Positions 66-31,306 of a stretch of 33,811 bases of DNA are shown piece after piece. The first letter of the stretch is position 1. Each line of letters opens with the position of its first letter. The translations under genes and the position numbers were made by a program. The DNA is taken from IMG/VR virus record IMGVR_UViG_3300010403_000019, positions 1 through 33,811 of that record. One strand, 5' to 3'. The DNA comes from a virus. The notes beneath the pieces were generated by a model that saw only the letters and a program-made list of their open reading frames with translations, made no database searches and was not told the DNA's origin.

Positions 66-251
66 TTAAGCCCTAGACCTAGACCTAGACCCAGACATAG
101 ACCTAGACCTAGACCCAGACATAGACCTACACCAAGACCTACACCAAGACCCAGACATAGACCTAGACCTAGACCAAGACATAGACCTACACCAAGATCT
201 ACACCAAGACTCAGGCCTATCAAACCCTGCTTGAAATATTGATATGCTCAT
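66..251 (-). CDS. Ser/Arg/Trp/Cys dipeptide-repeat protein, short paralog
   Basis: This is a 61-residue product. The first 14 residues (MSISIFQAGFDRPE) are unique sequence. The rest is a (Ser/Cys)-X repeat with X mostly Arg, Trp, Met or Gly, encoded by the hexamer array, ending SRSRSRA. The ATG overlaps the stop of the preceding gene (ATGA at 251-248), so translation is probably coupled to it. A second gene with the same N-terminus begins 19 bases after this stop. I recognise no family. The alternating pattern recalls low-complexity RS-type segments, but no function follows from that. Coding is supported by the coupled start, the paralog with its own Shine-Dalgarno and the absence of stops; translation remains an inference. 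Confidence 0.55.
   Translation of the reverse strand: MSISIFQAGFDRPESWCRSWCRSMSWSRSRSMSGSWCRSWCRSMSGSRSRSMSGSRSRSRA
72..210. repeat. Left degenerate hexanucleotide array
   Basis: This is a head-to-tail array of 6-bp units with plus-strand consensus CCTAGA and frequent point variants CCAAGA, CCCAGA, CATAGA and CCTACA. Variants recur in higher-order blocks: for example the series CCAAGA-CCCAGA-CATAGA also appears in the right array. Read on the minus strand the unit is TCTAGG, giving a Ser-X dipeptide repeat. The array lies inside the first Ser/Arg-rich gene. Slippage or recombination would add or remove whole codon pairs without changing frame. Confidence 0.95.
123..244. repeat. 122-bp direct repeat, left copy (identical to 33690-33811)
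   Basis: The 122 bases at 123-244 match 33690-33811 exactly by eye. They contain the end of the hexamer array plus the non-repetitive tail beginning TCAGGCCTATCAAACCCTGC. The sequences differ immediately upstream, so this is a duplicated array end and not simply the same contig end read twice. It corresponds to the N-terminal coding part of the two paralogous Ser/Arg-rich proteins. Such a repeat would be a hotspot for homologous recombination, and the element encodes its own Bet annealase. Confidence 0.85.
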
Positions 252-830: not shown

Positions 831-1922
831 TTATTTAACATCGCTCTGACGTTTAACATAAATATAATTTAGCTCCGCATGGTTTTCGATAGGGCACTCT
901 CGAATCATGTCAGCTGCAATGTCGAGCGTGTCTCTGGATTTAGCTTTCTCAAGTTGCTTCTTAACCTGTTCATACATTATTGGAGATACAACATGATCAT
1001 GCTCAGGAATTTCATCAATATTTGCTGTTATCTCTCCATTTTTATCGAGAATGTCAAGTTCACCTGTTATTTTGTTCGCCTTGAAGAAGTCAGCTCTTTC
1101 CTTGTAAAGCTTCCTAAGCGATAAAACCTCTTCTGTCTGAAGATATTTTTTTGGAATCGTCAGAGCTATTTTGTCCATCTCAGCTATGCTCGTAGCATCT
1201 TCAAGCTGAGCTCTTAAAGCTACGAAATCTATTGAGCTTTCTTCTTTCTCAGAAATCAAATTATTGATGTGAGCAGAATAAATTTCTTTTCTGGACGTTT
1301 GCGTGCTAACAACGCCATCCTCGAATGTTTTCCCTTCCATCTCTTCAGCAGTAGGGGACTGATCTATAATGTCAGGGAATGCCTTTCTAAGGGCTTGAGC
1401 TTCAGCACACTTTGCTAGTTGAGCGTATGGCCTTTTCTTCCACATTGCGTTTGGTGATGAGCTATCCTTTCCAGATGTTGCATAGTTCTCTTTCCAGAAT
1501 TCTTTTGCTGAGAACTCAACGATAATTCCGTTATTCATCATTTTAGAAACAGTGACTTTGCACCACTTTGGATATGTTACTGTTACGCCGCTAATGGTCT
1601 CTGTAACGTCATCCCCGAACTCAGGGTCACTCTGGCCAGCATAGCAGCCAGATCGTTGAGCTTGAATGCGATACAAGCCAATTCCTGGCATAACTATGTC
1701 GCGCCAATCATACTTACCTGTTTTTGCGTCCTTAACACTCATTGGGACAATGTGAACTGGTTTTTGAAGAGGATCAAGTGATCTAGCTTTACAGTACGAC
1801 CAAACCATTGCAATGCTGCTATCCGCTGCCCCAGGATAAATTGAGTTTTTCATTGCTGAATAAACGTGCTCGTCAATTGTTGCTATATCAAATACTTGTG
1901 ATTTTGATTGTAAATTGCTCAT
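831..1922 (-). CDS. bet: Phage recombination protein Bet (RecT/Red-beta family annealase)
   Basis: A 363-residue protein. Residues about 20-200 hold the Bet core: an N-terminal segment with AMVWSYCKARSLDPLQKPVH, then MPGIGLYRIQAQRSG, a central beta-rich part, and MWKKRPYAQLAKCAEAQALR followed by KAFPDI. These are hallmark blocks of the lambda Bet/RecT single-strand annealing proteins, which form rings or filaments on ssDNA and pair it with a complementary strand. The C-terminal 150 residues are charged and variable, as usual. AAGGA lies about 10 bases upstream of the ATG. The neighbouring upstream gene is a RecE-like exonuclease, so the pair forms a two-component recombination system. It may also recombine the direct repeats of this genome. 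Confidence 0.93.
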   Translation of the reverse strand: MSNLQSKSQVFDIATIDEHVYSAMKNSIYPGAADSSIAMVWSYCKARSLDPLQKPVHIVPMSVKDAKTGKYDWRDIVMPGIGLYRIQAQRSGCYAGQSDPEFGDDVTETISGVTVTYPKWCKVTVSKMMNNGIIVEFSAKEFWKENYATSGKDSSSPNAMWKKRPYAQLAKCAEAQALRKAFPDIIDQSPTAEEMEGKTFEDGVVSTQTSRKEIYSAHINNLISEKEESSIDFVALRAQLEDATSIAEMDKIALTIPKKYLQTEEVLSLRKLYKERADFFKANKITGELDILDKNGEITANIDEIPEHDHVVSPIMYEQVKKQLEKAKSRDTLDIAADMIRECPIENHAELNYIYVKRQSDVK

Positions 1923-1935
1923 TTTTTATGATTCC

Positions 1936-2724
1936 TTAAATGCTTATTGTTTGAGTTTCGTAAGTTGGCCATTTGTTTTCGTTAAAGCACTTCTTGTAGT
2001 CAACTAAAGCCGACTTATAAAATTCACGTCCAATATCAATGGCAGCTTCGTCCAGAACATAAACAGCGCAAGCGTAAGGTGGGTTTTTCTCTATTGCAAT
2101 TATTATGAAATTATTGCAATTTGTTCCTTTAGCTGCATTCATTCCATCTAAGAGCATGGCTGCTTGAACATGATACCCATACTTTCTGATTGAATATCGA
2201 AATGTATCTGGATTTGCGTCATCTGTCGTTTTTAGATCAACAATCATATTGTTGCTCATGATGTCAGGTCGACATTTGCAAAGAACTCCTGTTAAAGGGT
2301 CGTTCCAGTATATTGAGTTTTCGTAAGTAGCATTGAATATAAGTCTACCAGCCTGATCATGGTTCATTAAACTGTTTGCCATATCGGATAATTGATTGTA
2401 GTCATCAATGTCAATAATTGATTTACCTCCTCTTTCTTCTTGAATTTTCGCCCAGTATTTTTTCCCGTCAGTAGTTCTCCTGTCGACTTTATCGCAAACT
2501 ATAAATCTATCTTTGAATGATTCGTTTTCAAGAATATAGGTATGAAATGCGTTTCCAAATATAGTAGATGGCGTATCTTTTTCTCTAGTCTCTCTTTTTG
2601 GATTTACATATTCATGCCAGTAATGAAGTGGAGATTTTTTGAATGCCATTACGCCTGATCTGCTTATCCCATCGCTGGAGTGATAGTCTTCATTTGATAG
2701 GCTATTATATATTCCTGGTTTCAT
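1936..2724 (-). CDS. RecE-like PD-(D/E)XK exonuclease (DUF3799 type)
   Basis: A 262-residue protein with the PD-(D/E)XK nuclease signature: H61 in GNAFHTYIL, D154 in CRPDIM, D163-x-K165 in IVDLKTT, and Q187 in YHVQAAM. The N-terminal phrase ISRSGVMAFKKSPLHYW is typical of RecE/exodeoxyribonuclease VIII-like phage enzymes. These resect dsDNA 5'-3' to leave 3' tails for the annealase. It lies directly upstream of bet, 13 bases apart. Its ATG overlaps the preceding stop (TTATGA) and GAGAGGA stands about 10 bases upstream, fixing the start. It is shorter than E. coli RecE (866 aa), as is normal for phage versions that keep only the catalytic domain. Confidence 0.9.
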   Translation of the reverse strand: MKPGIYNSLSNEDYHSSDGISRSGVMAFKKSPLHYWHEYVNPKRETREKDTPSTIFGNAFHTYILENESFKDRFIVCDKVDRRTTDGKKYWAKIQEERGGKSIIDIDDYNQLSDMANSLMNHDQAGRLIFNATYENSIYWNDPLTGVLCKCRPDIMSNNMIVDLKTTDDANPDTFRYSIRKYGYHVQAAMLLDGMNAAKGTNCNNFIIIAIEKNPPYACAVYVLDEAAIDIGREFYKSALVDYKKCFNENKWPTYETQTISI

Positions 2725-3352: not shown

Positions 3353-3583
3353 TTAATTATTCCTTGATGCTATAAAGTAGAAGTGATCAATCGTGATAAG
3401 GCCGTTATCTATAATTGATTTTATTACATCGCCCCTTCTGTTTTTTATAGATTCTTTTACTATTATAGGTATATATTTTCTTATAGTTTCTTCATCCTCC
3501 TCTACTTTTGAGTGACACGATAATAATTTAAGTCCTAAACTTTCTAATGATAATGAGATTATTTGTTTGTCTAAATTATTCAT
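3353..3583 (-). CDS. First gene of the leftward early operon, hypothetical
   Basis: 76 residues starting MNNLDKQIISLSLESLGLKL. The start at 3583 has AAGGA 8 bases upstream (AAGGATTTTAACAATG) and lies just after the promoter/operator region. An in-frame ATG at 3631 lies within operator 1 and is rejected. The protein is mixed alpha/beta with charged helices and no recognisable HTH, zinc site or membrane segment. As first gene after the leftward promoter it might be a regulator (cII/antirepressor-like position) or an anti-host protein. No motif decides. Confidence 0.65.
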   Translation of the reverse strand: MNNLDKQIISLSLESLGLKLLSCHSKVEEDEETIRKYIPIIVKESIKNRRGDVIKSIIDNGLITIDHFYFIASRNN

Positions 3584-3617
3584 TGTTAAAATCCTTTTTT
3601 TGTTAGTTCTAGGCCAG

Positions 3618-3644
3618 CTTATATCAATCATTGATACTCGTCAA
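3618..3644 (-). promoter_or_regulatory. Leftward early promoter
   Basis: On the minus strand the -35 box is TTGACG (3644-3639) and the -10-like box is TATAAG (3623-3618), with a 15-base spacer, slightly short. Operator 1 lies between and over the boxes. This would drive the recombination operon starting at 3583. Confidence 0.5.
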
Positions 3645-3709: not shown

Positions 3710-3898
3710 ATGATAAAAATACGTGGGATTAAAAACTTAAGAATAGCTCTTTTAATGACACAGAAAGAGTTAGCCAGCGCGTTGTCAGTAACGCAACCCT
3801 TTATATCCTTTTTAGAAAAAGGGGGTAACTGCATCGATCGAACAAAGAAATTAATATTTGATCTTGCTGAAAGTAAAAATATAGAGTTTAAATTTTGA
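3710..3898 (+). CDS. Cro/CI-like HTH (XRE family) regulator
   Basis: A 62-residue protein that is almost entirely one helix-turn-helix domain. RIALLMTQKELASALSVTQP contains helix 2, turn and recognition helix 3, followed by FISFLEKGG, the usual XRE continuation. There is no C-terminal cleavage or dimerisation domain, so it resembles Cro or a minimal plasmid/phage repressor more than a LexA-like CI. It is transcribed divergently from the recombination operon, with two dyad operators in the 78-base gap before it. It is the only obvious candidate for the lysogeny switch. The Shine-Dalgarno is weak (GAGAG about 8 bases upstream). Confidence 0.85.
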   Translation: MIKIRGIKNLRIALLMTQKELASALSVTQPFISFLEKGGNCIDRTKKLIFDLAESKNIEFKF

Positions 3899-5544: not shown

Positions 5545-5567
5545 TTATCAACAGAATCTGTGGATAA
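5545..5567. promoter_or_regulatory. DnaA boxes
   Basis: TGTGGATAA at 5559-5567 is a perfect inverse of the consensus TTATCCACA. TTATCAACA at 5545-5553 is a one-mismatch box in the opposite orientation, 5 bases away. Host DnaA would bind here beside the iterons. Confidence 0.75.
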
Positions 5568-5577
5568 CTTTAAAATT

Positions 5578-5671
5578 TAGTCCCTAATTATACTTTTGTA
5601 GTCCCTAATTATACTTTTATCATGTTTTTTTAGTCCCTAATCATACTTTTGTAGTCCCTAATTATACTTTT
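5578..5671 (+). repeat. Four iterons (Rep binding sites)
   Basis: Units of TAGTCCCTAATTATACTTTT start at 5578, 5599, 5631 and 5652. Units 1, 2 and 4 are identical; unit 3 has C for T in TAATCATAC. Start-to-start distances are 21, 32 and 21 bp, so the two pairs are separated by exactly one extra helical turn and all sites face the same side of the helix. They immediately precede the AT-rich region and the Rep_3 gene, as in iteron plasmids. Confidence 0.92.
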
Positions 5672-5720
5672 TCTCGCCTACTTTCATATTAAAATCAACA
5701 GCTTACACTACCCTATAAAC

Positions 5721-5755
5721 AAGATTATAAACAAGCTTTTAAGATTATAAGCAAG
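5721..5755 (+). repeat. AT-rich direct repeats of the unwinding region
   Basis: AAGATTATAAACAAG (5721-5735) and AAGATTATAAGCAAG (5741-5755) are 15-bp copies with one mismatch, 20 bp apart. They resemble the 13-mer-type repeats where DnaA/Rep melt the duplex. Strand opening is inferred from position. Confidence 0.6.
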
Positions 5756-5802
5756 TAATAAACACGAGTCTCTTTTTTTAAAAAACCATTAAAAGCATTT
5801 TA

Positions 5803-5830
5803 TTTACTTTTTATAAAAAAGTAGTAAAAT
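5803..5830 (+). promoter_or_regulatory. Candidate rep promoter
   Basis: A TTTACT -35-like box (5803-5808) and a TAAAAT -10-like box (5825-5830) are separated by 16 bases, 31 bases before the rep start. The region is so AT-rich that chance matches are expected. Confidence 0.35.
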
Positions 5831-5861
5831 AAATAAAAGTAATTATTGATGGAGATGCTAA

Positions 5862-6593
5862 ATGGATTTAGAATTAAAACAAGACAAAACGAAGAGGTGG
5901 ATCATGGCAGACAAAGACATCTCTTTATACGCGATACACGGTTTAGATTTTAATGAGAAGAGAATATTGATAGCTGGTTTGTCTAAAGTTAATGGTAAGA
6001 GCGGTTTTGCTTCCTACAGAAAGATGATAACGATTACTGCTAAAGAATACTCAGAGCTTTATGGAATACCTCTAAATCACGCTTATGAAGACATGAAAGA
6101 AGCTTCAGATAAGCTTTACGAAAGAAGTTTGAAATTTATGGATGATAAAACAAGATCAATCCATTCAAAGGGCGAGCATAGATGGTTGGTTGGAAAACAT
6201 CACAACAAGGTTAAGGGAGAAATATCATTTTGCTTTAATCCTTATCTTGAAAGGTACTTCACGCAGTTGAAAAATAACTACACGATTTATCGAATAGAGG
6301 AAATGAGGGGCATAAAGTCGATGTACTCTCAAAGAATGATGGAAATAGTATTGACGTATCAAAAAACAGGAAAATGGATAGTTAGCGTCTCAGACTTATG
6401 TACCCTGATGGATGCTCCTAAAAGCTGTCAGGATGTTTACCATAATCTTAAAAAAGTGATCATAGATCGATGTGTAAATGATATGAGAAGAAAGGGGTGG
6501 CTAATTGATTATTTTGCTAGCGATAAGATTGGTAAAAAGATAATTCAACTAACATTCACATTTAAAAGAAATGAACAGCTGGAGTTAATGTAA
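5862..6593 (+). CDS. rep: Rep_3 family replication initiator
   Basis: A 243-residue protein with the tandem winged-helix layout of Rep_3/RepB plasmid initiators. It shows the N-terminal segment ISLYAIHGLDFNEKRILIAG, then ITAKEYSELYGIPLNHAYED followed by MKEASDKLYERSL, and in the second domain FNPYLERYFTQLKNNYTIYR with MYSQRMMEIVLTYQ. These match the pattern of RepE, pi and Acinetobacter-type Rep proteins that bind iterons as monomers, melt the AT-rich region and recruit the host helicase. GGAG precedes the ATG by 8 bases. Four iterons and DnaA boxes lie directly upstream. Within a podovirus genome this is the main evidence for plasmid-form prophage maintenance. Confidence 0.93.
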   Translation: MDLELKQDKTKRWIMADKDISLYAIHGLDFNEKRILIAGLSKVNGKSGFASYRKMITITAKEYSELYGIPLNHAYEDMKEASDKLYERSLKFMDDKTRSIHSKGEHRWLVGKHHNKVKGEISFCFNPYLERYFTQLKNNYTIYRIEEMRGIKSMYSQRMMEIVLTYQKTGKWIVSVSDLCTLMDAPKSCQDVYHNLKKVIIDRCVNDMRRKGWLIDYFASDKIGKKIIQLTFTFKRNEQLELM

Positions 6594-6979
6594 TGTCTGA
6601 ATATAAGTCAACTGGATTTTGCTTTACTTGCTCCAAACTTCACGATGCATGGGTTTTAATAAAATATGATAATAAAGATTTAAACGAAGAATACTGCGTA
6701 GACTGCTACGAAAAAGTAAGGCTAGAAAAAAAGAAAGGAAAAATAGCTACATGTTTTATCAATGAAAAATTAAGAAATTTAAAATACGGGTGCAATGAGT
6801 GCTGTAAAACTCTTTCTGTAGAAGACATTGTTTTGCCAAGCAATAACGAATGGATTTGTAGATGTTTAATATGCGATTACGTGGTGAGAGAATTTTCAAA
6901 CTTACCAAAAGAAGTAAGGGTAAAAATATCGGAAGCAGTTAGGTTTTTAAACAGCAATGAAAAATCATGTAGGGATTGA
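6593..6979 (+). CDS. Cys-rich multi-zinc-ribbon protein
   Basis: 128 residues. It has successive Cys pairs CFTC (10-13), CVDC (35-38), CNEC (67-70) and CRCLIC (89-94), which could form two zinc ribbons. The C-terminal third is helical and charged. The start overlaps the rep stop (TAATG), so the gene is translationally coupled to the initiator. That is suggestive of a role in copy control or replication, but no family is recognised. The spacing of Cys pairs also fits a small transcription-factor-like zinc protein. Confidence 0.7.
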   Translation: MSEYKSTGFCFTCSKLHDAWVLIKYDNKDLNEEYCVDCYEKVRLEKKKGKIATCFINEKLRNLKYGCNECCKTLSVEDIVLPSNNEWICRCLICDYVVREFSNLPKEVRVKISEAVRFLNSNEKSCRD

Positions 6980-6980
6980 A

Positions 6981-7307
6981 ATGAGCTACTACGACTTCTC
7001 AGAACCAATGCCAAAATCCGAACGAGCCAGAAAGCTAGAGTACGCTGATGAAAAAGAGAAATTTGCTGTGACAAGCAACTACGTAAAGCTCCCGTTCTCA
7101 AGCGAAGTGATTGCCAGGACAAAGAGAGAGCCAAGGGCTAAAAGTGTGTCTCCTTTGCTAGAATCATTCTTAAATGCCTCAAATTCAAAAGAATTTGAGT
7201 CAAAATCAATAGATAATAGAAATCCAATGGGTATGCCTAGGGTTATGTCAAAAGCCTCTGAAATCGCGCGTAACGAGGTTTTTAAGAAGCTGGGCATTGC
7301 TCGATGA
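6981..7307 (+). CDS. Hypothetical protein
   Basis: 108 residues starting MSYYDFSEPMPKSERARKLE. The start at 6981 is preferred to 6957 because AGGGA lies 8 bases upstream and the codon follows the previous stop by one base. The protein is hydrophilic and rich in Lys, Arg, Glu and Ser, probably largely disordered, with a conserved-looking helical end (ASEIARNEVFKKLGI). The function is not recognisable. The next gene overlaps its stop (ATGA). Confidence 0.65.
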   Translation: MSYYDFSEPMPKSERARKLEYADEKEKFAVTSNYVKLPFSSEVIARTKREPRAKSVSPLLESFLNASNSKEFESKSIDNRNPMGMPRVMSKASEIARNEVFKKLGIAR

Positions 7308-7918: not shown

Positions 7919-8275
7919 ATGAAGATAATACCAAAAGAGCATCAGATTCAGAAATCGATAATTGAATGGGCTAAATATAGTCCAATTCTAAGAGAGTATC
8001 TTGTGTGTATAGAAAACGAACGAAAAACAAGTCCCATTCAAGGGCTTAACAGAAAAAGAATGGGGGTGAAGTCTGGCGTGTCAGATCTTTTTTTGGCCTA
8101 CCCAAATGGTGGAAAGCATGGATTGTGGATTGAGTTAAAAAGAGATAAAAAATCGATAGTTTCCGCAAGCCAACAATCCTGGATTGACAAAATGAACTCC
8201 ATTAGTTACGAAGCTAAAGTCGCTTACGGATTTGAAGATGCAAAAAAAATAATAGAAACCTATCTGAAATTATAA
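7919..8275 (+). CDS. VRR-NUC domain nuclease
   Basis: 118 residues, the standard size of stand-alone phage VRR-NUC proteins. The signature blocks are HQIQKSIIEWAK at the N-terminus, then NERKTS, KRMGVKSGVSDLFLAYP with catalytic-site D56, and LWIELK with E72-x-K74 of the PD-(D/E)XK core, followed by SQQSWI. Stand-alone VRR-NUC enzymes process structured DNA such as Holliday-junction-like intermediates and are often found in replication modules of podoviruses. Here it closes the rightward rep operon. The start at 7919 has GGAGGG about 14 bases upstream. Confidence 0.9.
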   Translation: MKIIPKEHQIQKSIIEWAKYSPILREYLVCIENERKTSPIQGLNRKRMGVKSGVSDLFLAYPNGGKHGLWIELKRDKKSIVSASQQSWIDKMNSISYEAKVAYGFEDAKKIIETYLKL

Positions 8276-9292: not shown

Positions 9293-9490
9293 ATGCATAA
9301 GTCTACTCATAAAACTTACGGGACAGATTTAGGCGTGCACCAAATGGTTGGTGGTCCAAAAACTCAGGATACTAAGCACCGGGAGCCAATGAGCATTCCT
9401 TTTCCTGGATACAAGCCATATCACTGTAATCACGCTGAGCCTGTAAAGGTTTCGGTAAAATATAATGTCTCGAAGAATAAGATTGGTTGA
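9293..9490 (+). CDS. Small hypothetical protein
   Basis: 65 residues starting MHKSTHKTYGTDLGVHQMVG, with GAGG 6 bases upstream of the ATG. It is rich in His, Lys and Pro (FPGYKPYHCNHAEPVKV), with no membrane segment. The last 26 bases overlap the terminase-like gene, whose start lies at 9465. No family recognised. Confidence 0.5.
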   Translation: MHKSTHKTYGTDLGVHQMVGGPKTQDTKHREPMSIPFPGYKPYHCNHAEPVKVSVKYNVSKNKIG

Positions 9491-9920
9491 TATGATAGAG
9501 AAACCGCATGGATTAAGTAATCTGACTGAAGATGTTGCGCAGATTATATATGATGGAATAAAAGCGGGACTTCCAAATCGAATGTCTCATGAGCTTGCTG
9601 GTGTAAAAGAAAGATGTTTTTATAATTGGATGTCAAAAGGCGAAAAAGATATCGATGAAAACATAGAGACGGCGTACTCTATTTTTGTGCAGACTATAAA
9701 GCAGGTTAGAGCAAAATCTGCAATGAGAAAATTAAAATATATTAATTCAAAAGATAATAAATCTTGGCAAGCAAAGGCTTGGCTTCTTGAAAGATGTCAC
9801 GCAAGCTCATTTGCTGTGAATGCGCAGGAGATGCTAGAAATGAAAGATCAGATGAATGAGATAAAGGCTTTATTGAGCAAAGTTCTTGCGCCTCAGGAAA
9901 TCAAAAACGAAGATGAATGA
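9465..9920 (+). CDS. Terminase small subunit-like protein
   Basis: 151 residues. Residues about 20-60 contain an HTH-type fold with AGLPNRMSHELAGVKERCFY followed by NWMSKGEKD, the typical DNA-recognition segment of TerS proteins. After it come YSIFVQTIKQVRAKSAMRKL and SWQAKAWLLER, and then a coiled C-terminus (MLEMKDQMNEIKALLSKVL). TerS binds the packaging start site and hands DNA to TerL. It lies upstream of the portal, about 16 kb away from the large subunit at 26070, as in several T7/BPP-1-like temperate podoviruses. The Shine-Dalgarno is weak, so translation may depend on the overlapping upstream gene. Confidence 0.75.
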   Translation: MSRRIRLVDMIEKPHGLSNLTEDVAQIIYDGIKAGLPNRMSHELAGVKERCFYNWMSKGEKDIDENIETAYSIFVQTIKQVRAKSAMRKLKYINSKDNKSWQAKAWLLERCHASSFAVNAQEMLEMKDQMNEIKALLSKVLAPQEIKNEDE

Positions 9921-10347
9921 CATAAGCTCTATTTATTTGTTTATTTTTTATAATAAAGCTGTAGGGAAACAGGTAAGATACATACGAAATAAAAAATATC
10001 TTCATTGCAACATAATAGTTTTTGATGGGAAACACTATGTTCTGTTAGAAGTTTCAACATCAGGAATTGATTTTAGAATTGTAAGAACAAAAAGCTTATT
10101 AAAGTTGATTGGAAGACTTAAAACTATTGAATCAATTGAGTCTATGATTTGCTTGTCTACATCATCTCGCTACAAATCAAAATGGTTCCCTCTTTGCATC
10201 AAATCATGTAATGAGTTCTGCAAATCTGTAGCCGCTGTTGACATTGGGTTTACATATGATCCGGTTCATCTGTACAAAAAGTTATTAAAATACGATAATC
10301 AAAAGAATTTTGAAATTTTGTATGCATGGGAGAGATCAAATGGATGA
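9913..10347 (+). CDS. Possible permuted papain-like (NlpC/LRAT-type) protein
   Basis: 144 residues starting MNDISSIYLFIFYNKAVGKQ. The start at 9913 overlaps the terminase stop at 9918-9920. H31 in YLHCNIIVFDGKHYV precedes a Cys cluster SCNEFCK (C99, C103). A His followed later by a (N/S)CxxF-type Cys is the order seen in circularly permuted papain-like folds such as LRAT or the YiiX type. Proteins of this outline occur next to the portal in some podoviruses, perhaps acting on cell wall or lipid during entry. The assignment rests on motif order only and may be wrong. Confidence 0.4.
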   Translation: MNDISSIYLFIFYNKAVGKQVRYIRNKKYLHCNIIVFDGKHYVLLEVSTSGIDFRIVRTKSLLKLIGRLKTIESIESMICLSTSSRYKSKWFPLCIKSCNEFCKSVAAVDIGFTYDPVHLYKKLLKYDNQKNFEILYAWERSNG

Positions 10348-10546
10348 TAGAGAAGCAGATTCAAGCACTCAAAGAAGCAATGAATTGTTAGATAAGCAGA
10401 TTTCTCAAAATGAAGCAGATATTGAGACTAAGCGAAGATCAATGTACGACACAAGATTGTCAATTATAAAGTCATCGGGCAAGGAAAACTGGGCTAGCTC
10501 TAATCCGAATGTTGCAAAATCAACGAGTGACAGTGGAGCTTTATAA
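10340..10546 (+). CDS. Small hypothetical protein before portal
   Basis: 68 residues starting MDDREADSSTQRSNELLDKQ. The start at 10340 has GAGAGA upstream and overlaps the previous stop at 10345-10347. The product is hydrophilic, with a short coiled-coil (LDKQISQNEADIETKRRS) and a Ser-rich end. Its stop overlaps the portal ATG (TAATG). The position suggests a minor virion or packaging accessory. Confidence 0.6.
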   Translation: MDDREADSSTQRSNELLDKQISQNEADIETKRRSMYDTRLSIIKSSGKENWASSNPNVAKSTSDSGAL

Positions 10547-12129
10547 TGGATTATTCTAAATTAAGTGCAAGATACAACGAATCAAAACAATATAAAGACA
10601 GATGGCTTGCTCTATACAAAGATTTGTATTTTTATGTGATCCCAGATAGGGATGCTATGAATGTTAAATTCAATTACAGAGACGACGGAAAGCCAGTAAC
10701 TGCTAGCGTATGGGACAACACTGCCGTTTTAGCTGCATATCAGAGAAGCAATGATTTGCATGGTCTATTGTTGCCTAAAGATAGAACGTGGGGGAAACTA
10801 ACAATGGATCCTCACATGTTTAAGCAGGATGCGATAGAGGCGTCTAAGCCTATTTTGGACGAAATGAATGATCGGATATTCTTCTATATCAATCAATCCA
10901 ACTTATCTCGAGTGGTGTCTAGCAGTAATTTAGATCTTATTGGTGGTACAGGCGCGTTGTGGGTGGAATCGATTGACGACAATACGCCTCTTTATTTTAG
11001 AAGTATTCCTGCCGTCGCTCTTTACATTGAATATAGTACTGATGACGTTCTTAATACTTGTTGGTATCAATGCAAAATGACGGGCAGACAAGTTGACGAT
11101 GCATTTCCAAAATACAAAGGAACTCAAAAAGTAAATATAAAAGAATCTCCAAATGATATTTTTATTGTTATTTATGGGCAAATAAAATTATCAGAAGATA
11201 GTTTTTTCATATACGCAACGATGGAAGAAGACCCATTTAATCCATTATTTGAAGTTGAAAGAAATTATCCTCAAATTATAGTGTACAGAGATAGAGTTCG
11301 ACCAGGAGAGGCAGATGGAAGAGGTATTGGTGTCGACTTGCTTCCTATGATTCAAGATTTGAATAGACTTGTTATGTATAATAGACAATCTATGGCGTTC
11401 AAAGCAAATCCCCCTATGTTTTATGATTCGAACGCTTATTTCAATCCATACTCTGTCAGACAGTGGGCTGGTGCAATGATAGTTAGAAGCCCTCAAGGGA
11501 GAAATCCTGTGGAGGCCATGCAGATGCCGGAATATCACTCTGTTTTATCTGAGATACAAGACATGAGGCAATTTATAATAAAGGGATTTATGATTGATCC
11601 ATTGGGGGAAATAAATGCTCCTGTCAAATCTGCAACTGAAGTGTCTATTCGAGAAAACAGAGCGCAGCGAACAGCAAGCACCGATATTTCAAGATTGATA
11701 AATGAGCTTCCGAAGCAGATATTTGAAGTGTCAGCAAAAATACTACATCATAGGCGGTTGCTAACTTCTGATAGGGCAAACATTAGGAACTTTAATATTT
11801 CTAAATTTCGATTTTCATTTGAATCTCCACTTTTTGATCTTCAAAAACAAGATGATTTGAATCACTTCATAACAAATATGCAGATAAAGCAGCAGTTTTT
11901 TGGTCAAGGAGCTGCAATGGCAAGTATTGATATTGGTGAAACTCAAGAATTTTTAACGAACGTTCTTAATCTAAAGTCAAAATTATTTGTTTCAAAAGAG
12001 AAATTGATGCAAATGATGCAAATGGCGGCCAAGCAAGCTCAAGAAGCAAATCAGTTAGCTGCTCAGCCAACTCCAAGCACAGCGGCGGGTAAAGTTAGTT
12101 TTCCACAACAGTCTACAGTAGGGATTTGA
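10546..12129 (+). CDS. Portal protein (head-tail connector)
   Basis: 527 residues, matching the T7 gp8-type portal (about 535 aa). Diagnostic stretches are the N-terminal YKDLYFYVIPDRDAMN, the TASVWDNTAVLAAYQRSNDL block, LHGLLLPKDRTWGKL, then DLIGGTGALWVES, GRGIGVDLLPMIQDLNRL in the stem/clip region, and MIDPLGEINAPVKSATEVSI followed by RENRAQRT near the C-terminal third. The last 40 residues are Gln/Ala-rich. Twelve copies form the ring through which TerL pumps DNA and to which tail tubular protein A attaches. The family is Head-tail_con (PF12236). The next gene overlaps at TGATG. Confidence 0.95.
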   Translation: MDYSKLSARYNESKQYKDRWLALYKDLYFYVIPDRDAMNVKFNYRDDGKPVTASVWDNTAVLAAYQRSNDLHGLLLPKDRTWGKLTMDPHMFKQDAIEASKPILDEMNDRIFFYINQSNLSRVVSSSNLDLIGGTGALWVESIDDNTPLYFRSIPAVALYIEYSTDDVLNTCWYQCKMTGRQVDDAFPKYKGTQKVNIKESPNDIFIVIYGQIKLSEDSFFIYATMEEDPFNPLFEVERNYPQIIVYRDRVRPGEADGRGIGVDLLPMIQDLNRLVMYNRQSMAFKANPPMFYDSNAYFNPYSVRQWAGAMIVRSPQGRNPVEAMQMPEYHSVLSEIQDMRQFIIKGFMIDPLGEINAPVKSATEVSIRENRAQRTASTDISRLINELPKQIFEVSAKILHHRRLLTSDRANIRNFNISKFRFSFESPLFDLQKQDDLNHFITNMQIKQQFFGQGAAMASIDIGETQEFLTNVLNLKSKLFVSKEKLMQMMQMAAKQAQEANQLAAQPTPSTAAGKVSFPQQSTVGI

Positions 12130-12386
12130 TGGATATAAATAAATTGAAAGACTTGGTTTCTTCAAAAAAAATTGACAAAGTGCAGTTCAAAATTTATGCT
12201 TTGTTTGAATTAAGCGATCAAGGAAGAGAATTATTGAATATAATGTCAGAATCAGTTTTGATGGAAGAGCCTCAAGAGCTTAATGAAGCTAATTTTGCAT
12301 GGCATGATGGAAGGCGATCTGTGTGGAGACATATAAAATTAACTATTATCATGATTGATAAAATGGTAAATGATGATTTTTCCTAA
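12129..12386 (+). CDS. Bbp19-like structural protein
   Basis: 85 residues starting MDINKLKDLVSSKKIDKVQF. The start is the ATG in TGATG overlapping the portal stop. The segment YALFELSDQGRELLNIM, a central acidic loop and FAWHDGRRSVWRHIKLTIIM reproduce the pattern of Bbp19 of Bordetella phage BPP-1 and relatives (dGRevL ... eGRRSvvl.I), a small conserved protein between portal and scaffold. This supports a BPP-1-type temperate podovirus lineage. Exact role in the virion is not established to my knowledge. Confidence 0.75.
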   Translation: MDINKLKDLVSSKKIDKVQFKIYALFELSDQGRELLNIMSESVLMEEPQELNEANFAWHDGRRSVWRHIKLTIIMIDKMVNDDFS

Positions 12387-12579
12387 CTTGCCTAACGAGA
12401 TTTTTTTTGAAAATCTTGAAAAATCAATTCCAGGAGAAACAATTAGGGATAAATTGTTTTTTCTTAAAATTAGAAATTCAAATTTAGAGAATAAACTAAA
12501 AGGAATGGAGAGTGATTTAAAGTTTTTTTTAAAATCAAGATCCGTTTGCTTAAGGCCTCATAAAGATGATACCGGATAA
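12370..12579 (+). CDS. Small coiled-coil hypothetical protein
   Basis: 69 residues starting MMIFPNLPNEIFFENLEKSI. Residues about 25-55 are a predicted coiled coil (DKLFFLKIRNSNLENKLKGM). It overlaps the Bbp19-like gene by 17 bases and has only a weak Shine-Dalgarno (GGT). It is kept because it fills the space before the scaffold gene in the right strand. Unknown function. Confidence 0.5.
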   Translation: MMIFPNLPNEIFFENLEKSIPGETIRDKLFFLKIRNSNLENKLKGMESDLKFFLKSRSVCLRPHKDDTG

Positions 12580-12589
12580 AGGATTGAAA

Positions 12590-13252
12590 ATGTCAGAATT
12601 AATAAATGAAACAATTTCAGAATCAACAATAGCCTCTGTGATATCTGAGCCAAGATCATATGCTGGTAAATTTGGCTCAGTTGAGGAGCTTGAAACTGCA
12701 TACGGTCATGCCGTTAATGCAATTCGTGAGGCAAATGAATTAAAGAAGATGATGGTTGTTCCTGATGATTATTCTATTCCGGATGGAGTTTCTCTTCGGG
12801 ATATTGAGATATCCGAAATGAAGTCCATGGCTAAAAATGCAGGCCTTAATCAAGCGCATTTTGAAAAAATGACAAAAGACATGCATAGCAGGATCCAAAG
12901 TGGGTTATCTGCATTTGAAGAATCAAAGAAATCTTTAGGGGAAGAAAATTTAAATGTCATTACTGATTATGTAAAAAGGGTTTACCCTGAATCTTTGCAT
13001 GACACCGTGCTAACCAAACTTATAAAGGATAAAAATGCCATGAGCGATGCGATGAGGCACAGAAATGAGTTGTTGAATAGTCAGGCTCCTGGAATGAGCA
13101 GCGGATCAACATCGGTTCCTAAGTCATCTTATGATGGTGAGGGTGAGCTGCATAAGGTTGCTTTGGAATATAAGAAAAATCCAAATGAAAACAACAGAAA
13201 TAGATATATAAACTTGGCTCGTGAAGTTTCAGAGGAAAGATTTAAAAAATGA
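12590..13252 (+). CDS. Capsid assembly scaffolding protein
   Basis: 220 residues starting MSELINETISESTIASVISE with AAGGA 8 bases upstream; an upstream ATG at 12566 lacks a site. The protein is acidic and helical, with SYAGKFGSVEELETAYGHAV near the N-terminus and MVVPDDYSIPDG in the middle, and a Lys/Arg-rich C-terminus (NRNRYINLAREVSEERFKK) as in T7 gp9-type scaffolds, which contact the capsid with a basic helix-turn-helix end. It lies directly before the major capsid gene. Position and composition give the call. Confidence 0.8.
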   Translation: MSELINETISESTIASVISEPRSYAGKFGSVEELETAYGHAVNAIREANELKKMMVVPDDYSIPDGVSLRDIEISEMKSMAKNAGLNQAHFEKMTKDMHSRIQSGLSAFEESKKSLGEENLNVITDYVKRVYPESLHDTVLTKLIKDKNAMSDAMRHRNELLNSQAPGMSSGSTSVPKSSYDGEGELHKVALEYKKNPNENNRNRYINLAREVSEERFKK

Positions 13253-13254
13253 TA

Positions 13255-13282
13255 TTGCAATACACTTGAATTAGAGTATAAT
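13255..13282 (+). promoter_or_regulatory. Strong sigma70-type promoter of the capsid cassette
   Basis: TTGCAA (13255-13260), a 16-base spacer and a perfect TATAAT (13277-13282) lie immediately after the scaffold gene. This is the best promoter match in the window. It would give a leader of about 130 bases before the capsid ATG. Confidence 0.7.
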
Positions 13283-13312
13283 TTACTCATCCGCACGAAA
13301 GCTCTGGAAACA

Positions 13313-13419
13313 GGCAACCTTTTTTGTAAGATCATGACGTTATCGGCTCCTTGAATGGGCAACCCGATAGATGGTCAATAAGAAGCTATTATTGATTACT
13401 CTACTTAAAGGGGTTGCCC
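13313..13419 (+). promoter_or_regulatory. Structured capsid leader with two competing anti-Shine-Dalgarno arms
   Basis: GGGCAACCC (13357-13365) pairs perfectly with GGGTTGCCC (13411-13419), the bases immediately before the capsid ATG, covering part of the AAAGGGG ribosome-binding site. An inner stem TCAATAA (13375-13381) with TTATTGA (13389-13395) has a 7-base loop. A second upstream GGCAACC (13313-13319) could pair with the same GGTTGCC. Two arms competing for one target is switch-like. The structure probably tunes capsid translation; ligand or trans factor unknown. Confidence 0.6.
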
Positions 13420-14304
13420 ATGGCTAACCAAATAAATGAAGCGACTGCAATGCAGTTGTTTGATACCGAAGTAACACTAAAATATCAAAACAACATGAAG
13501 CTTATGGATACCGTTGATGAGCGTCATGGTACCAAAGGAACAACGTTAAATGTTCCAGTGTCTGACCTTATCGAAATGGATGAGGGAAATTTCGCGCCAA
13601 CCGACATCCCAATAAGTCCTGTCAATGAAACAAATCGTCAGGTCGTTACAAAAGATTTTCACGTTAAAACTGCCATTGGTGGTGGTGAAAAAACCTTGTT
13701 TAACTTCGACAAGATAGTTGATCATGCAAAATTACATGCATTAGCTGCTGCTCGTATGACTGATTTTATTAAAATTAATGCAATATTTAGTGATGCTGGT
13801 GTAGGAACAATTAATGTTATTCCAAGTACGACAGGCGTAAACACTTCATTAAATGAAGGAAAAATGGCCGCTGGTATTTCATATTTAGAAAGTCAAGGTG
13901 TTGATGTTCAGGATTACTCTGTTTCTGTTTGGTCTCCCGCACTATTAAAAGAAGGTTTTTATGACGATGACAAAGTTGTAAATTTCTTTTATAACGATGT
14001 AAAGCCTCTGACTGATAATAAAATTAGAGGTTATCTAGGTTGTGATATGAGGTTCCTTGGGTCTAATGGAATAAATCAAATTCCTTTCACATCTTCTTTG
14101 GGTGTAAATACATATCTTGTTCCTATGGTTCATCGTGATGCAATTGTTCAAAGTTTTAATCGAGATGTGTCAACATCAATAACTTGGTTGCCACAACAAG
14201 ATAGATGGGAGCTTCTAACAATCTTAACCAGTGGAGCGTTAATTATTCAATACAATGGTATTGTATTTTTGACTTGTAAAAACCCGTTCACTGAAAATGC
14301 ATAA
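13420..14304 (+). CDS. Major capsid protein
   Basis: 294 residues starting MANQINEATAMQLFDTEVTL. The ATG at 13420 follows AAAGGGG (13407-13413). An upstream in-frame TTG (13414) lies within the leader stem and is rejected. The arrangement of an N-terminal arm, KGTTLNVPVSDLIEMDEG, the P-loop-like FHVKTAIGGGEKTLFNFDKI region, a central A-domain (SVSVWSPALLKEGFYDDDKV), and an end with VHRDAIVQSFNRDV, then LLTILTSGALIIQYNGI, corresponds to the compact HK97-fold capsid proteins of BPP-1-like podoviruses. It is expressed from its own promoter and leader, as expected for the most abundant virion protein. Confidence 0.88.
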   Translation: MANQINEATAMQLFDTEVTLKYQNNMKLMDTVDERHGTKGTTLNVPVSDLIEMDEGNFAPTDIPISPVNETNRQVVTKDFHVKTAIGGGEKTLFNFDKIVDHAKLHALAAARMTDFIKINAIFSDAGVGTINVIPSTTGVNTSLNEGKMAAGISYLESQGVDVQDYSVSVWSPALLKEGFYDDDKVVNFFYNDVKPLTDNKIRGYLGCDMRFLGSNGINQIPFTSSLGVNTYLVPMVHRDAIVQSFNRDVSTSITWLPQQDRWELLTILTSGALIIQYNGIVFLTCKNPFTENA

Positions 14305-14315
14305 GGAGAAATATA

Positions 14316-15008
14316 ATGTCTGGTTTTGAAACTTTCACACCTATTTTTGGTGGTTTAGACGGATCCGCTGTTGGGCTATTTAGCGCATCAACAGCTGATA
14401 ACTATTCAACAATTACTACCGCTGGTTATCTTAATGATATCAATAAGCTTATTAAGCCAAACGATATTATTTATGTAAACTATTCAGATACCAGTGTATT
14501 TCCTATGAACACAGGTCTTTCTGCAACATTTGGGGCTTTTCAAGTAACTTATGATTCTATTTTAGAAAATTGGAGCCTGGTTCAAACTGCGCAAGATGTT
14601 CTGCATTCTCGAGTTGCATTAACAGCGGCTCAATGGAATGGAATGTATGCGACCCCAATTCTTTTGGTTCCAGCCTATGGTGCTAATACACTGATATCTG
14701 TAGATCAAGTTGATATTGGTCTTACTTATGGAACTGTTGTTCTTGCTGGTGGGGGAGTTGTTGGTGCTCAATATGACTCTACTGTTCATGGCGCTGGCGC
14801 AACCGCATCCACAACACTAGCAGCAGCTACATTTTTTGTAACAGCTAGTACAATGTTTCAGTTAGAAGATAGCCTAGGAACTGGTGCTCCTTTTTCTGAA
14901 TCTGTAAATAAGGGCATCTATTTGAGTAATGCAACTGGAGCATTCACAGGCGGAACTGGGTCAACATTTATTGTCGACACCTATTATAGAATTGTAGCAA
15001 CAGTATAG
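14316..15008 (+). CDS. Probable capsid decoration/cement protein
   Basis: 230 residues, ATG with AAGGAG 8 bases upstream, 11 bases after the capsid stop. It is rich in Thr, Ser, Ala and Gly with beta-strand character. After an N-terminal patch (TTAGYLNDINKLIKPNDIIY) typical of small phage head-decoration proteins come repeated Ala/Gly/Thr tracts (VHGAGATASTTLAAATF). The gene shares the capsid transcript and ends at a strong terminator, so it is made in capsid-like amounts. Direct homology is not certain, and a head fibre is an alternative. Confidence 0.65.
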   Translation: MSGFETFTPIFGGLDGSAVGLFSASTADNYSTITTAGYLNDINKLIKPNDIIYVNYSDTSVFPMNTGLSATFGAFQVTYDSILENWSLVQTAQDVLHSRVALTAAQWNGMYATPILLVPAYGANTLISVDQVDIGLTYGTVVLAGGGVVGAQYDSTVHGAGATASTTLAAATFFVTASTMFQLEDSLGTGAPFSESVNKGIYLSNATGAFTGGTGSTFIVDTYYRIVATV

Positions 15009-15017
15009 AAGAATTTT

Positions 15018-15046
15018 GGGGATACCACATGTATCCCCCTTTTTTA
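15018..15046 (+). terminator. Intrinsic terminator after the decoration gene
   Basis: A perfect 8-bp stem GGGGATAC (15018-15025) and GTATCCCC (15031-15038) with a CACAT loop is followed by a T6 tract (15040-15045). It closes the capsid-decoration cassette. Read-through or partial termination would set lower levels of downstream tail genes. Confidence 0.85.
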
Positions 15047-15062
15047 ATTAGGGGGTAATGTT

Positions 15063-15638
15063 GTGCCATCAAAATTAGAAGTTGTTAATCAAGTTCTTTC
15101 AGAAATAGGTCGCCCTCCTGTAGCAAATTTATCAAATAGTGATGATGCTAGCCTAATCATATCTCCAAGAGTTGACTTGTTGTCTCGAGAGTTGCTTCAA
15201 CGAACTGATTGGAATTTTGCTATAATATATAAAGCTGACGCTACACCTCTTCCTGTGAGTATCTCTCCTGATTTCCCATGGACTTTCCAACTTCCCTCTG
15301 ATTTTGGTTCGTTTTATAAGACATCTCCGCAGAATCCGAACTTTGGATTATATTATGAATTCATAAATAACTTTATTTGTACTAATGCAAATCCAATACA
15401 ATATTACTATGTAGTTAATCAAGTTGATTACTCTGTTATTCCAATTTTATTTATGAGAGCTCTTGTTTTATATACTGCTTCAACGGTTTCTCTTTCATTG
15501 ACAAATAATGCTCAATTAACAAGATTTTTAGAAGATAAATATGCCAGAAAATTGGACGATGCTATAAGGCAAAATGATATGCAAAGATATGCTCAATCTA
15601 CCCCTTATAATGATTTCAATAGGCAGACTTATATATGA
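15063..15638 (+). CDS. Tail tubular protein A (T7 gp11-like)
   Basis: 191 residues, close to T7 gp11 (196 aa). The GTG at 15063 is preceded by AGGGGG; the ATG at 15058 is out of frame. The start KLEVVNQVLSEIGRPPVANL and the pattern SRELLQRTDWNFAIIYKADA, then DFPWTFQLPSDFG and MRALVLYTASTVSLSLTNN with FLEDKYARKLDDAIRQND, are hallmark blocks of the gatekeeper ring that joins portal to nozzle. Overlap with the following gene (ATGA) couples the two tail proteins in the usual A-B order. Confidence 0.9.
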   Translation: MPSKLEVVNQVLSEIGRPPVANLSNSDDASLIISPRVDLLSRELLQRTDWNFAIIYKADATPLPVSISPDFPWTFQLPSDFGSFYKTSPQNPNFGLYYEFINNFICTNANPIQYYYVVNQVDYSVIPILFMRALVLYTASTVSLSLTNNAQLTRFLEDKYARKLDDAIRQNDMQRYAQSTPYNDFNRQTYI

Positions 15639-17632
15639 AAATGCCTAGGCAATCTAGTTTTACAATGGGAGAGGTTGACGCAATCAATTGGAAAAGGACT
15701 GATATTGAGTCTTATCTAAAAGCAGCTCAAAGCTTATTGAACTGCGAGGTCTCAACAACTGGTCTGGCGAGAAAAAGAAAAGGAACAAAGTTTCTTGGGG
15801 ATGTGTCTCAGTATATTGATATTAATTCTCAGATGTATGAATTTGTTGATAATAATGGGACTTTTTATTTATTGATATCTAAAGATATGCAGTTTAATGT
15901 GTTTACTATAAATCCATTCGCATTTGTTCAATCTATTTCAACTCCTTACGTGTCTACTGTTTTGCCTGACATAGATTACTCATTAGATAATGACGTTTTA
16001 ATTTTGTCTCATAACGCATATCCATCGGCAAGAATTTACATTAGTAGTTATAGCCCATCTATTGTATTTTCGTATCAAGTTTTGAATATATATCCTTTTC
16101 CAGCGTATGATTTTGGGGATATAAATTACAATAATTACACGGTAAGTTATTCAATTTCAGGAAGTGTTTTAACCTTTGTTATCACAGCTGGTGTTGGCGT
16201 CGCAACTGGGTTTACATCTGAATGGATAGGTGGCTCTATTATAGGGGCTGGCAATAGCGTGAATGATCCAATTGCTTATGCGATAATTACAAATGTTGTT
16301 AATAGCGGAAGTCCATCTGGGCATATAACGACATTTACGGCAAATATACAAATTCCTTTTTTGGCTTCAGGATTTAGCACTTTTGGCTCTCAATATTCAA
16401 TAAAGCAGCCTATTTGGAGTTCAACATTAGGATATGCTTCCAAAGTTGCTTTTTATCAAAATAGACTTTGGTTTGGTGGGACAAAATCGCTTCCTACGAC
16501 TGTCGCTGGATCAAAAACAAATTCTCCATTAAGCTTTGATGTTGGTATTGCAAGAGATACCGATGCTATTGTGTACACAATAGGACAATCAAACGCAGGA
16601 TCTATTCTTTGGATGAACGGTGGAAAACAATTTGAAATATATACTACAAATTATGAATTTGTGGCTCCTCAAAATGAAAATGTTGGATTAACTCCAGGAA
16701 CATTTTCTATCAGGCAGCAATCTGCTTATGGAAGTTCTGAAAACATAAAGCCGACTACGTATATAAATGATAGTTATTATGTTTCAAGAGAAGGAAATGC
16801 AATAATAAATTTTCACTTTGAGGGGGTTGGTCTTTCTTATACCTCTTCAAACATAAGTATTGCATCGGCTCATTTGGTTAAAAATCCAATTAATAGAGCT
16901 TTATTAAGAGGAAGTTCAATAAATCAGGACAATTTCATTTATTATTTAAATGATGATAATAGCGTTACAGCGTTTCAGTTCGCTGCAGAATATAAATTGG
17001 CTGCTCTTACCCCTGTGAAGTTTCAGGATAATGTCACCGTTAAAGATATTGTTTCAATAAACAATAAAATTTATTTCATTAAGAAATATGAGCTGACATC
17101 TCTTCATGCGATTGAAGTATTTGACGACAATGTAAAGGTCGATGGTTTTTTTGATGCTTTTATGGATGCTAGTGGATTAGTTCAAGGATTAAACTCTTTC
17201 AATGGATATACTGTTCAGGTTATTTCAAATGGTGAGGACTATGGTCAATATAAAGTTGTTAATGGAAGAATAACAGTTCAAAATGTTGGCGGAATTCCCG
17301 AGACTGTTATAATTGGATTATTGTATCCGTTAAGAATATCTCCGATGTATGTTTTCTCAGGAGCATCTCAGTCAAATTATTTTAAAAATGTTAGTAGAAT
17401 ATATGTGGATTATTTCAATACAATAAACTTCCAGATATCAGGAACACAAGTTGACTGGCAAACATTCGATGACATTCAGAATTCGACAGAAGTTGTTCCG
17501 AAAAATGGGACAGCAATTGTTTCGTTAGTAACTGGCTGGAATAGATTCGAAACATTTTCTATAACACAGAACTCTCCATTTGATTTGCAAATAACAGGCA
17601 TATCATATCAAATAGATTCTACAATTATATAA
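15635..17632 (+). CDS. Tail tubular protein B / nozzle (T7 gp12-like)
   Basis: 665 residues; T7 gp12 has about 794. It begins PRQSSFTMGEVDAINWKRTD, the standard opening of nozzle proteins (sl.nf..GevsP...gR.Dl..y....... N), with AQSLLNCEVSTTGLARKRKG following. The rest is beta-propeller-like, rich in Asn, Ser, Ile and aromatic residues, including YASKVAFYQNRLWFGGTKSL, where the FyqnRLwfgg block is diagnostic, and a Cys-free C-terminal half. Six copies form the tip of the short tail, and its fibres dock to the adaptor above. Coupled to tail tubular protein A. Confidence 0.92.
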   Translation: MKMPRQSSFTMGEVDAINWKRTDIESYLKAAQSLLNCEVSTTGLARKRKGTKFLGDVSQYIDINSQMYEFVDNNGTFYLLISKDMQFNVFTINPFAFVQSISTPYVSTVLPDIDYSLDNDVLILSHNAYPSARIYISSYSPSIVFSYQVLNIYPFPAYDFGDINYNNYTVSYSISGSVLTFVITAGVGVATGFTSEWIGGSIIGAGNSVNDPIAYAIITNVVNSGSPSGHITTFTANIQIPFLASGFSTFGSQYSIKQPIWSSTLGYASKVAFYQNRLWFGGTKSLPTTVAGSKTNSPLSFDVGIARDTDAIVYTIGQSNAGSILWMNGGKQFEIYTTNYEFVAPQNENVGLTPGTFSIRQQSAYGSSENIKPTTYINDSYYVSREGNAIINFHFEGVGLSYTSSNISIASAHLVKNPINRALLRGSSINQDNFIYYLNDDNSVTAFQFAAEYKLAALTPVKFQDNVTVKDIVSINNKIYFIKKYELTSLHAIEVFDDNVKVDGFFDAFMDASGLVQGLNSFNGYTVQVISNGEDYGQYKVVNGRITVQNVGGIPETVIIGLLYPLRISPMYVFSGASQSNYFKNVSRIYVDYFNTINFQISGTQVDWQTFDDIQNSTEVVPKNGTAIVSLVTGWNRFETFSITQNSPFDLQITGISYQIDSTII

Positions 17633-17641
17633 TGGTGAATT

Positions 17642-18106
17642 ATGTCAGATCCAGGAACGGCAATGATGGTTATCGCAGGCATTGGGGCTGTTAACAAAGC
17701 AGTTGGCGCAGGATATAAGATGGATGCTGCCGATGCAGCTGAGGAAGGGTTGGATCTTCAGTCAAAACAGCAAACTCTTCATTACCAACAAAAAGCACTT
17801 AATAATTATGCTATAACTGAAAAAATATTAGATAGACAGGTTGCTCAGGCTACTACAAGAGGGATTTCCATGTCATCCCCTAGTTTTAATGCTATTCAGA
17901 GAAATACATTGAATATTTCCGCAAAAGAAGGGGCTAATCTGGATATAGAGGAGGCTTTGGCAAAATCAAATATTGATGTAGAGAAGGCGAATGTAAGAAG
18001 AAGTTTATCAGCATCTTTATTTGGGGATATATTTGAAACTGCTGAATCTTTTGCGTCTATTTCAACAAAAATGCCTAGTTATAAGAAAAGTGGGAGTAAG
18101 AAATAA
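17642..18106 (+). CDS. Internal virion protein, gp14-like
   Basis: 154 residues with an Ala/Gly-rich, hydrophobic N-terminus (TAMMVIAGIGAVNKAVGAGY), then a long helix with heptads (LDLQSKQQTLHYQQKALNNY), GISMSSPSFNAIQRNTLNIS in the middle and a basic tail (KMPSYKKSGSKK). T7 gp14 has this arrangement, inserting into the outer membrane to start the ejection channel. It lies in the gp14 position between the nozzle and the gp15/gp16-like proteins. GGTGA precedes the ATG. Confidence 0.75.
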   Translation: MSDPGTAMMVIAGIGAVNKAVGAGYKMDAADAAEEGLDLQSKQQTLHYQQKALNNYAITEKILDRQVAQATTRGISMSSPSFNAIQRNTLNISAKEGANLDIEEALAKSNIDVEKANVRRSLSASLFGDIFETAESFASISTKMPSYKKSGSKK

Positions 18107-24702: not shown

Positions 24703-24714
24703 GAGATTTTAATC

Positions 24715-27533: not shown

Positions 27534-27544
27534 GCGGGGAATAT

Positions 27545-27838
27545 ATGATTACTCTAGGATTTACTTGTGGAATATCAAATCTTGTTACGTTAGATGTTCC
27601 TTTTACAGATGGGAATGGTGTGCCTATAACTAGCACTTACATAACGATACCAACTACAGGAACGGAGGGCGGTATTGCTTATTATAACAGTAATGGTGAT
27701 CCAATGTGGAAACCATATGCTGTTCTAGGATATAACCCAATAGCAGCTAAAATGATTGCAACTTCCGTCATTATCGACAGTGTTACATACACAACTACAG
27801 CTACACCAATGGATTGGGCTGGAAGCTATAAAGGATAA
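27545..27838 (+). CDS. Small hypothetical virion-region protein
   Basis: 97 residues starting MITLGFTCGISNLVTLDVPF. Thr-, Ile- and Gly-rich with beta-strand periodicity. GGGGA lies about 8 bases before the ATG. It is located between terL and the small RITE-repeat gene. It looks like a short beta-sandwich structural protein, possibly a fibre-associated chaperone or cap, without a family I can name. Confidence 0.6.
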   Translation: MITLGFTCGISNLVTLDVPFTDGNGVPITSTYITIPTTGTEGGIAYYNSNGDPMWKPYAVLGYNPIAAKMIATSVIIDSVTYTTTATPMDWAGSYKG

Positions 27839-27990: not shown

Positions 27991-28006
27991 TTTAGAAGGG
28001 ATGGTT

Positions 28007-31303: not shown

Positions 31304-31306
31304 TTT

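Follow-up and report, generated by a model that had tools for sequence, protein, structure and literature searches.

The window is an entire IMG/VR record of 33,811 b. It is probably the genome, complete or nearly so, of a temperate podovirus that lives on in its host as a free circular plasmid, i.e. a phage-plasmid. Judged from its sequence, it holds an intact iteron-Rep_3 replicon inside a complete podoviral genome, and its early module is found again in a second viral genome, G081, combined there with another virion module. A reading made earlier from the DNA letters (hereafter the sequence-only reading) had reached the same interpretation, which is still the best supported one and is aided by G081; the absence of an integrase, to which that reading also appealed, lends it little weight.

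The Rep_3 initiator and its origin

The gene at 5862-6593 had been read as a Rep_3 initiator, and the family scan agreed: Rep3_N (E=4.5e-25) and Rep3_C (E=5.7e-7) each matched above cut-off, and both parts of the WH1+WH2 initiator (PF01051 and PF21205) of a Rep_3 iteron-type theta replicon are present. When compared with the PDB by sequence, the protein matched RepE of F (2z9o/1rep, E ~1e-15) and also RepA of pPS10 (1hkq). A search against plasmid and phage records, which the sequence-only reading had recommended, returned Rep_3 matches in 4718 plasmid records versus 14 phage records; in the plasmid replicons related to that of the window, the repeats are spaced 20-22 bp and lie upstream of rep. 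The window Rep was absent from 16 genomes of the host order, in a search run without a positive control. Viral contigs scanned with Rep alone included none carrying the window's peptides. A Rep_3 profile scan of viral contigs gave 40 Rep_3 contigs, and over the stretch covered none of these had the core virion genes of the window. Structures modelled for Rep (from the single sequence) and for the protein encoded at 248-619 had very low confidence and were left unused.

Table 1. Features of the window, in order of position within each group
Feature	Position	Strand	Basis or remark
DnaA box TTATCCACA	5559..5567	-	consensus match; 11 bp ahead of first iteron
Iteron 1, perfect, TAGTCCCTAATTATACTTTT	5578..5597	+	repeat search
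Iteron 2, perfect, TAGTCCCTAATTATACTTTT	5599..5618	+	repeat search
Iteron 3, one mismatch to TAGTCCCTAATTATACTTTT	5631..5650	+	repeat search
Iteron 4, perfect, TAGTCCCTAATTATACTTTT	5652..5671	+	repeat search
AT-rich leader, candidate unwinding element	5673..5861	+	AT content
Direct repeats AAGATTATAARCAAG inside leader	5721-5735, 5741-5755	+	repeat search
Inverted half-iterons over promoter-like site, candidate rep autoregulatory operator	5803..5830	+	sequence only
Rep_3 replication initiator, 243 aa	5862..6593	+	Rep3_N and Rep3_C matches
Hexamer-unit array, second part	72..214		repeat search
RecT annealing protein	831..1922	-	family scan
RecE/exonuclease VIII-type nuclease	1936..2724	-	family scan/PHROGs
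Conserved protein, function unassigned	3353..3631	-	divergent from HTH gene; homologue in G081
Small XRE/HTH_3 regulator	3710..3898	+	divergent from leftward early operon; homologue in G081
Small cysteine-rich protein adjoining rep	6593..6979	+	family scans
Rep-proximal gene	6957..7307	+	kept beside Rep_3 in G081
VRR-NUC nuclease	7919..8275	+	replication gene directly upstream in relatives
Virion and packaging module, TerS to TerL	9465..27838	+	PHROGs; conserved in relatives
Fibre-like proteins	28001..31999	+	PHROGs
Lysis genes, endolysin and presumed holin	31996..32822	-	PHROGs; holin by position only
Hexamer-unit tandem array	33534-33777		within end feature 33534..33811

The region upstream of rep has the other elements of such a replicon, namely direct iterons in the 17-22-bp range, a DnaA box and an AT-rich region (Table 1), and together with rep they follow the order usual on plasmids. 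The 20-bp iterons had been described as perfect, which holds for three of the four; the copy at 5631 has a single mismatch. Any such iteron match was found in 0 of 100 shuffled sequences, and the whole window contained no further copy with up to 3 mismatches allowed. The start-to-start distances of 21, 32 and 21 bp correspond to about 2, 3 and 2 helical turns. Several DnaA boxes had been claimed, of which one consensus box was found at the origin. The leader, a candidate for the proposed AT-rich unwinding region, is 76% AT vs 65% genome-wide. An exact search for the window iteron in viral contigs gave no match, nor did Rfam match the window.

Within the leader, the half-iterons TACTTTT (at 5805) and AAAAGTA (at 5817) form an inverted pair that overlaps a promoter-like TTTACT-16-TAAAAT. 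These 7-mers occur 14 times in the window, of which 4 belong to the iterons and 3 more fall in the 189-b stretch ahead of rep (P=0.0026 for three in the leader, first-order shuffles). In the Rep_3 plasmids pPS10, R6K and F, Rep dimers repress rep at inverted half-iterons of the rep promoter, and the layout in the window is a candidate for this classic autoregulation arrangement, another mark of Rep_3 replicons.

Gene content and contig ends

PHROGs calls (TerS, portal/adaptor, MCP, two tail tubular proteins, large internal virion protein, TerL, fibre and endolysin) bore out the podoviral virion and lysis gene set that had been reported. Virion, packaging and lysis genes and a plasmid replication gene, as looked for in a phage-plasmid, are present together; a partition or addiction system, usual in phage-plasmids and not obligatory, was not found in the window. 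The label 'T7/BPP-1-like' applies loosely, to the portal/adaptor; the single-subunit RNA polymerase and own DNA polymerase of T7-like phages (Autographivirales) are absent from the PHROGs and Pfam matches.

As the sequence-only reading had stated, the window has no recognizable integrase, polymerase, helicase, ParA/ParB or toxin-antitoxin genes: Pfam and PHROGs family scans gave no match above cut-off to a polymerase, a helicase, a recombinase or a toxin-antitoxin pair, the window contains no ParA and no homologue of an O-like initiator, and no classical CI-type repressor was recognized in it. The tyrosine integrase expected of an integrating temperate phage is likewise missing from the window. 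We considered this absence as proof of episomal life and rejected it; it is weak evidence for plasmid life, because most relatives with ordinary lytic-type initiators also lack an integrase. Positions 1-25000 had no close DNA relatives among plasmid or phage records, and no host genome carrying the element was found.

The contig ends have a 39-b exact repeat in common, and the final 122 b are found again at 123-244; the end repeat of the 33534..33811 region is common to 1-39 and 206-244. These repeats are consistent with a circular genome, although only suggestive of it. Arrays of 6-bp units were seen in four phage genomes: the window (72-214 and 33534-33777), L132:613-799 and 1555-1789, L254:1-103 and L154:2191-2443. 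Their units differ in sequence (AGACCT, GAGCGG/TTACGG, AACCGG and CCAGAG), and in three of the four genomes homologues of the 248-619 gene are their neighbours. The arrays may act like a centromere or take part in packaging or recombination.

Relatives of the virion module and the replication slot

The virion module of the window recurs in dozens of environmental contigs, many of them 33-36 kb long with assembler-style end overlaps. Related portals occur in Rickettsiella massiliensis, Candidatus Aquirickettsiella gammari and one more Rickettsiella bin, and of 16 genomes from that order, 4 had one. The virion family infects Rickettsiella-type Gammaproteobacteria, which are intracellular, and its other members include integrated prophages. 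Among cultured phages, Vibrio and Pelagibacter podoviruses come closest, with ~25% portal identity. In R. massiliensis 20B (L072 and other stretches) we observed several decayed copies of the family's head protein gene. The large terminase frame of another genome, G006 (L009:13867-16203), is split by an insertion that looks intein-like by eye, with an HNH-type frame inside.

Rep_3 was absent in 67 of 67 virion-family records. Directly upstream of VRR-NUC, the relatives carry a gene for an O-like initiator, a VapE-like protein or a RepA-helicase-type ATPase; in nine of them the O-like gene has internal 18-24-bp repeats, as in lambda. Since the slot gene varies among the relatives and the window has Rep_3 near this lytic-initiator slot, the slot seems to be swapped often. 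Such swapping, together with the lack of integrase and par in the nearest relatives and of any other initiator found in the window, favours the chief rival explanation, namely that Rep_3 merely took the place of a lambda-O-type initiator and serves lytic replication only, in a virulent phage or in one that lacks stable maintenance as a plasmid. We consider this unlikely, though it deserves serious weight, since the window has a plasmid-style half-iteron operator and an XRE switch gene, and G081 carries an O-like initiator beside its Rep_3 origin, so that Rep_3 is not simply an O replacement.

Some members of the virion family show other lifestyle genes. The G010 genome encodes ParA and a divergent Rep-like gene (L047:9296-11156, G010 25796-27656) homologous to neighbours of ParA/MipZ on plasmids of Legionella antarctica and Aquicella lusitana; no clear iterons were found upstream of this Rep-like gene. 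A RelE/ParE-like protein near the G010 ParA was suspected by eye. In G060 (L137:2940-5279), TerL is directly followed by a ParA-type ATPase and a tyrosine recombinase, and the genome also encodes a relative of Legionella plasmid proteins. In the portal tree, G010 and G060 group with integrated prophages, and the window lies outside that integrase/ParA clade. The ParA genes of these two members speak for the phage-plasmid reading; the window's place in the tree, the lack of Rep_3 in the 67 records and the lack of recognized partition, toxin-antitoxin and CI-type genes in the window speak against it.

Integration had been named as an observation that would speak against an episome; it was seen in other virion-family members in Rickettsiella and not in this genome. 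We weighed whether the phage integrates by means of a host XerC/D-type or unrecognized recombinase, with Rep_3 as an auxiliary replicon. Relatives residing in Rickettsiella chromosomes or encoding tyrosine integrases make this conceivable, as does LME-1 of Legionella, which switches between integration and an episomal form (PMC5071653). By its description, LME-1 resembles the window as a ~30-kb phage-like element from a related host order, but it integrates at a 22-nt att site. This att sequence is absent from the window, which also has no host DNA flanks and no recombinase that we could find, and integration is improbable.

A second genome with the same early module and two origins

G081 (IMGVR_UViG_3300003320_000416, 37,914 b) was reached by a scan with the window RecT. 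Its virion genes are mostly unlike those of the window, whereas the early and lysis regions are homologous, with identities of 58% for the exonuclease, 58% for VRR-NUC, 49% for the rep-proximal gene, 48% for the small HTH protein, 46% for the endolysin and 42% for the 3353-type protein. The gene order HTH, Rep_3, 6957-type gene, VRR-NUC is the same in both genomes. This shared order rules out a simple join at rep, and the virion genes of the window are open and conserved; a plasmid-phage assembly chimera or a defective element, as might be suspected from the repeat arrays at each contig end and from the restriction of Rep_3 to the window within its virion family, is hence very improbable indeed.

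The G081 Rep_3 is only 26% identical to that of the window and is closest to the Rep of phage KS14. Its iterons, ACCGCACATACGTGTTTTTA, differ from those of the window; three perfect copies start at 5599, 5621 and 5654 (spacings 22 and 33). Two DnaA boxes, TGTGAATAA, lie directly ahead of them, as the window's box does relative to its own iterons. The order DnaA box, iterons with one wider gap, AT-rich leader and rep is common to both genomes; the origin architecture is thus retained even though Rep differs, and its iterons with it. That Rep is less conserved than its neighbours and has different iterons fits selection by plasmid incompatibility, although replicon replacement would look alike.

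No integrase was found in G081. It also encodes an O-like initiator (10173-10775) with 23-bp repeats inside the gene, and two origins can be placed, a Rep_3/iteron origin at L254:5599-5676 and a lambda-type origin inside the O-like gene at L254:10547-10621. Because of this O-like initiator with its intragenic iterons, the Rep_3 origin is not needed for lytic initiation in G081, where it is predicted to be a second, plasmid-type origin beside the lytic-type one. Phage P1 and its relatives, which are large, contractile-tailed and equipped with par, follow a two-origin logic, one plasmid and one lytic. G081 resembles them in this respect, whereas the window shows one origin only.

Discussion

For the free circular plasmid that we favour, the following working model can be drawn. 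Rep monomers would attach to the four iterons, which lie in helical phase next to the DnaA box; they would melt the AT-rich leader and load the replisome of the host, and Rep dimers on the inverted half-iterons over the rep promoter would limit copy number. The divergent XRE regulator may help to choose between maintenance and lysis, and during lytic growth RecT/RecE may aid DNA amplification that depends on recombination. Since a second initiator was not found in the window, lytic replication, too, probably begins at the Rep_3 origin. As a more specific and tentative proposal, the window would be a par-less podoviral phage-plasmid that uses one autoregulated Rep_3/iteron origin for both maintenance and lytic replication, and whose early module moves between unrelated virion modules, with Rep and iterons differing together, possibly under incompatibility pressure.

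A plasmid prophage had been considered unusual for short-tailed phages, but it has precedents among them. Sodalis phiSG1 (DQ785801), whose host is a symbiont, has short-tailed virion genes (P22/HK620-like), a Rep_3-family RepA and RecT/RecE, and four annotated 17-nt repeats before RepA. It differs from the window in its size of 52 kb, in carrying ParA and an integrase-like gene, and in a virion family unrelated by annotation; its Rep is only 24.5% identical to that of the window. The Burkholderia phages KS14 and FLC10 also have a Rep_3 initiator with repeats upstream, and KS14 was demonstrated to be a plasmid prophage (PMC3091744); unlike the window, both have a P2-like contractile-tailed virion, and KS14 has ParA and a serine recombinase. 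The prophage of the short-tailed Ochrobactrum podovirus POI1126 was shown to be a plasmid (PMC5492332), but this phage is 60 kb long, has partition genes and no recognized rep, and belongs to another podovirus group. With phiSG1, KS14 and POI1126 as precedents, the window is a further case of a known type: phage-plasmids, including Rep_3 and short-tailed ones, are already known, and what is unusual here is the lack of par and of a second initiator. No member of the window's own virus family is known to have a Rep_3 copying system as a plasmid.

On the interpretation favoured here, short-tailed phages associated with Rickettsiella-type intracellular bacteria would join the phage-plasmids. One virion family holds integration, ParA-type plasmid genes, Rep_3 and lambda-type lytic origins, which would make switches of lifestyle between lytic phage, prophage and plasmid comparable within it, and the window and G081 may serve as a pair for comparing one-origin with two-origin control of copy number.
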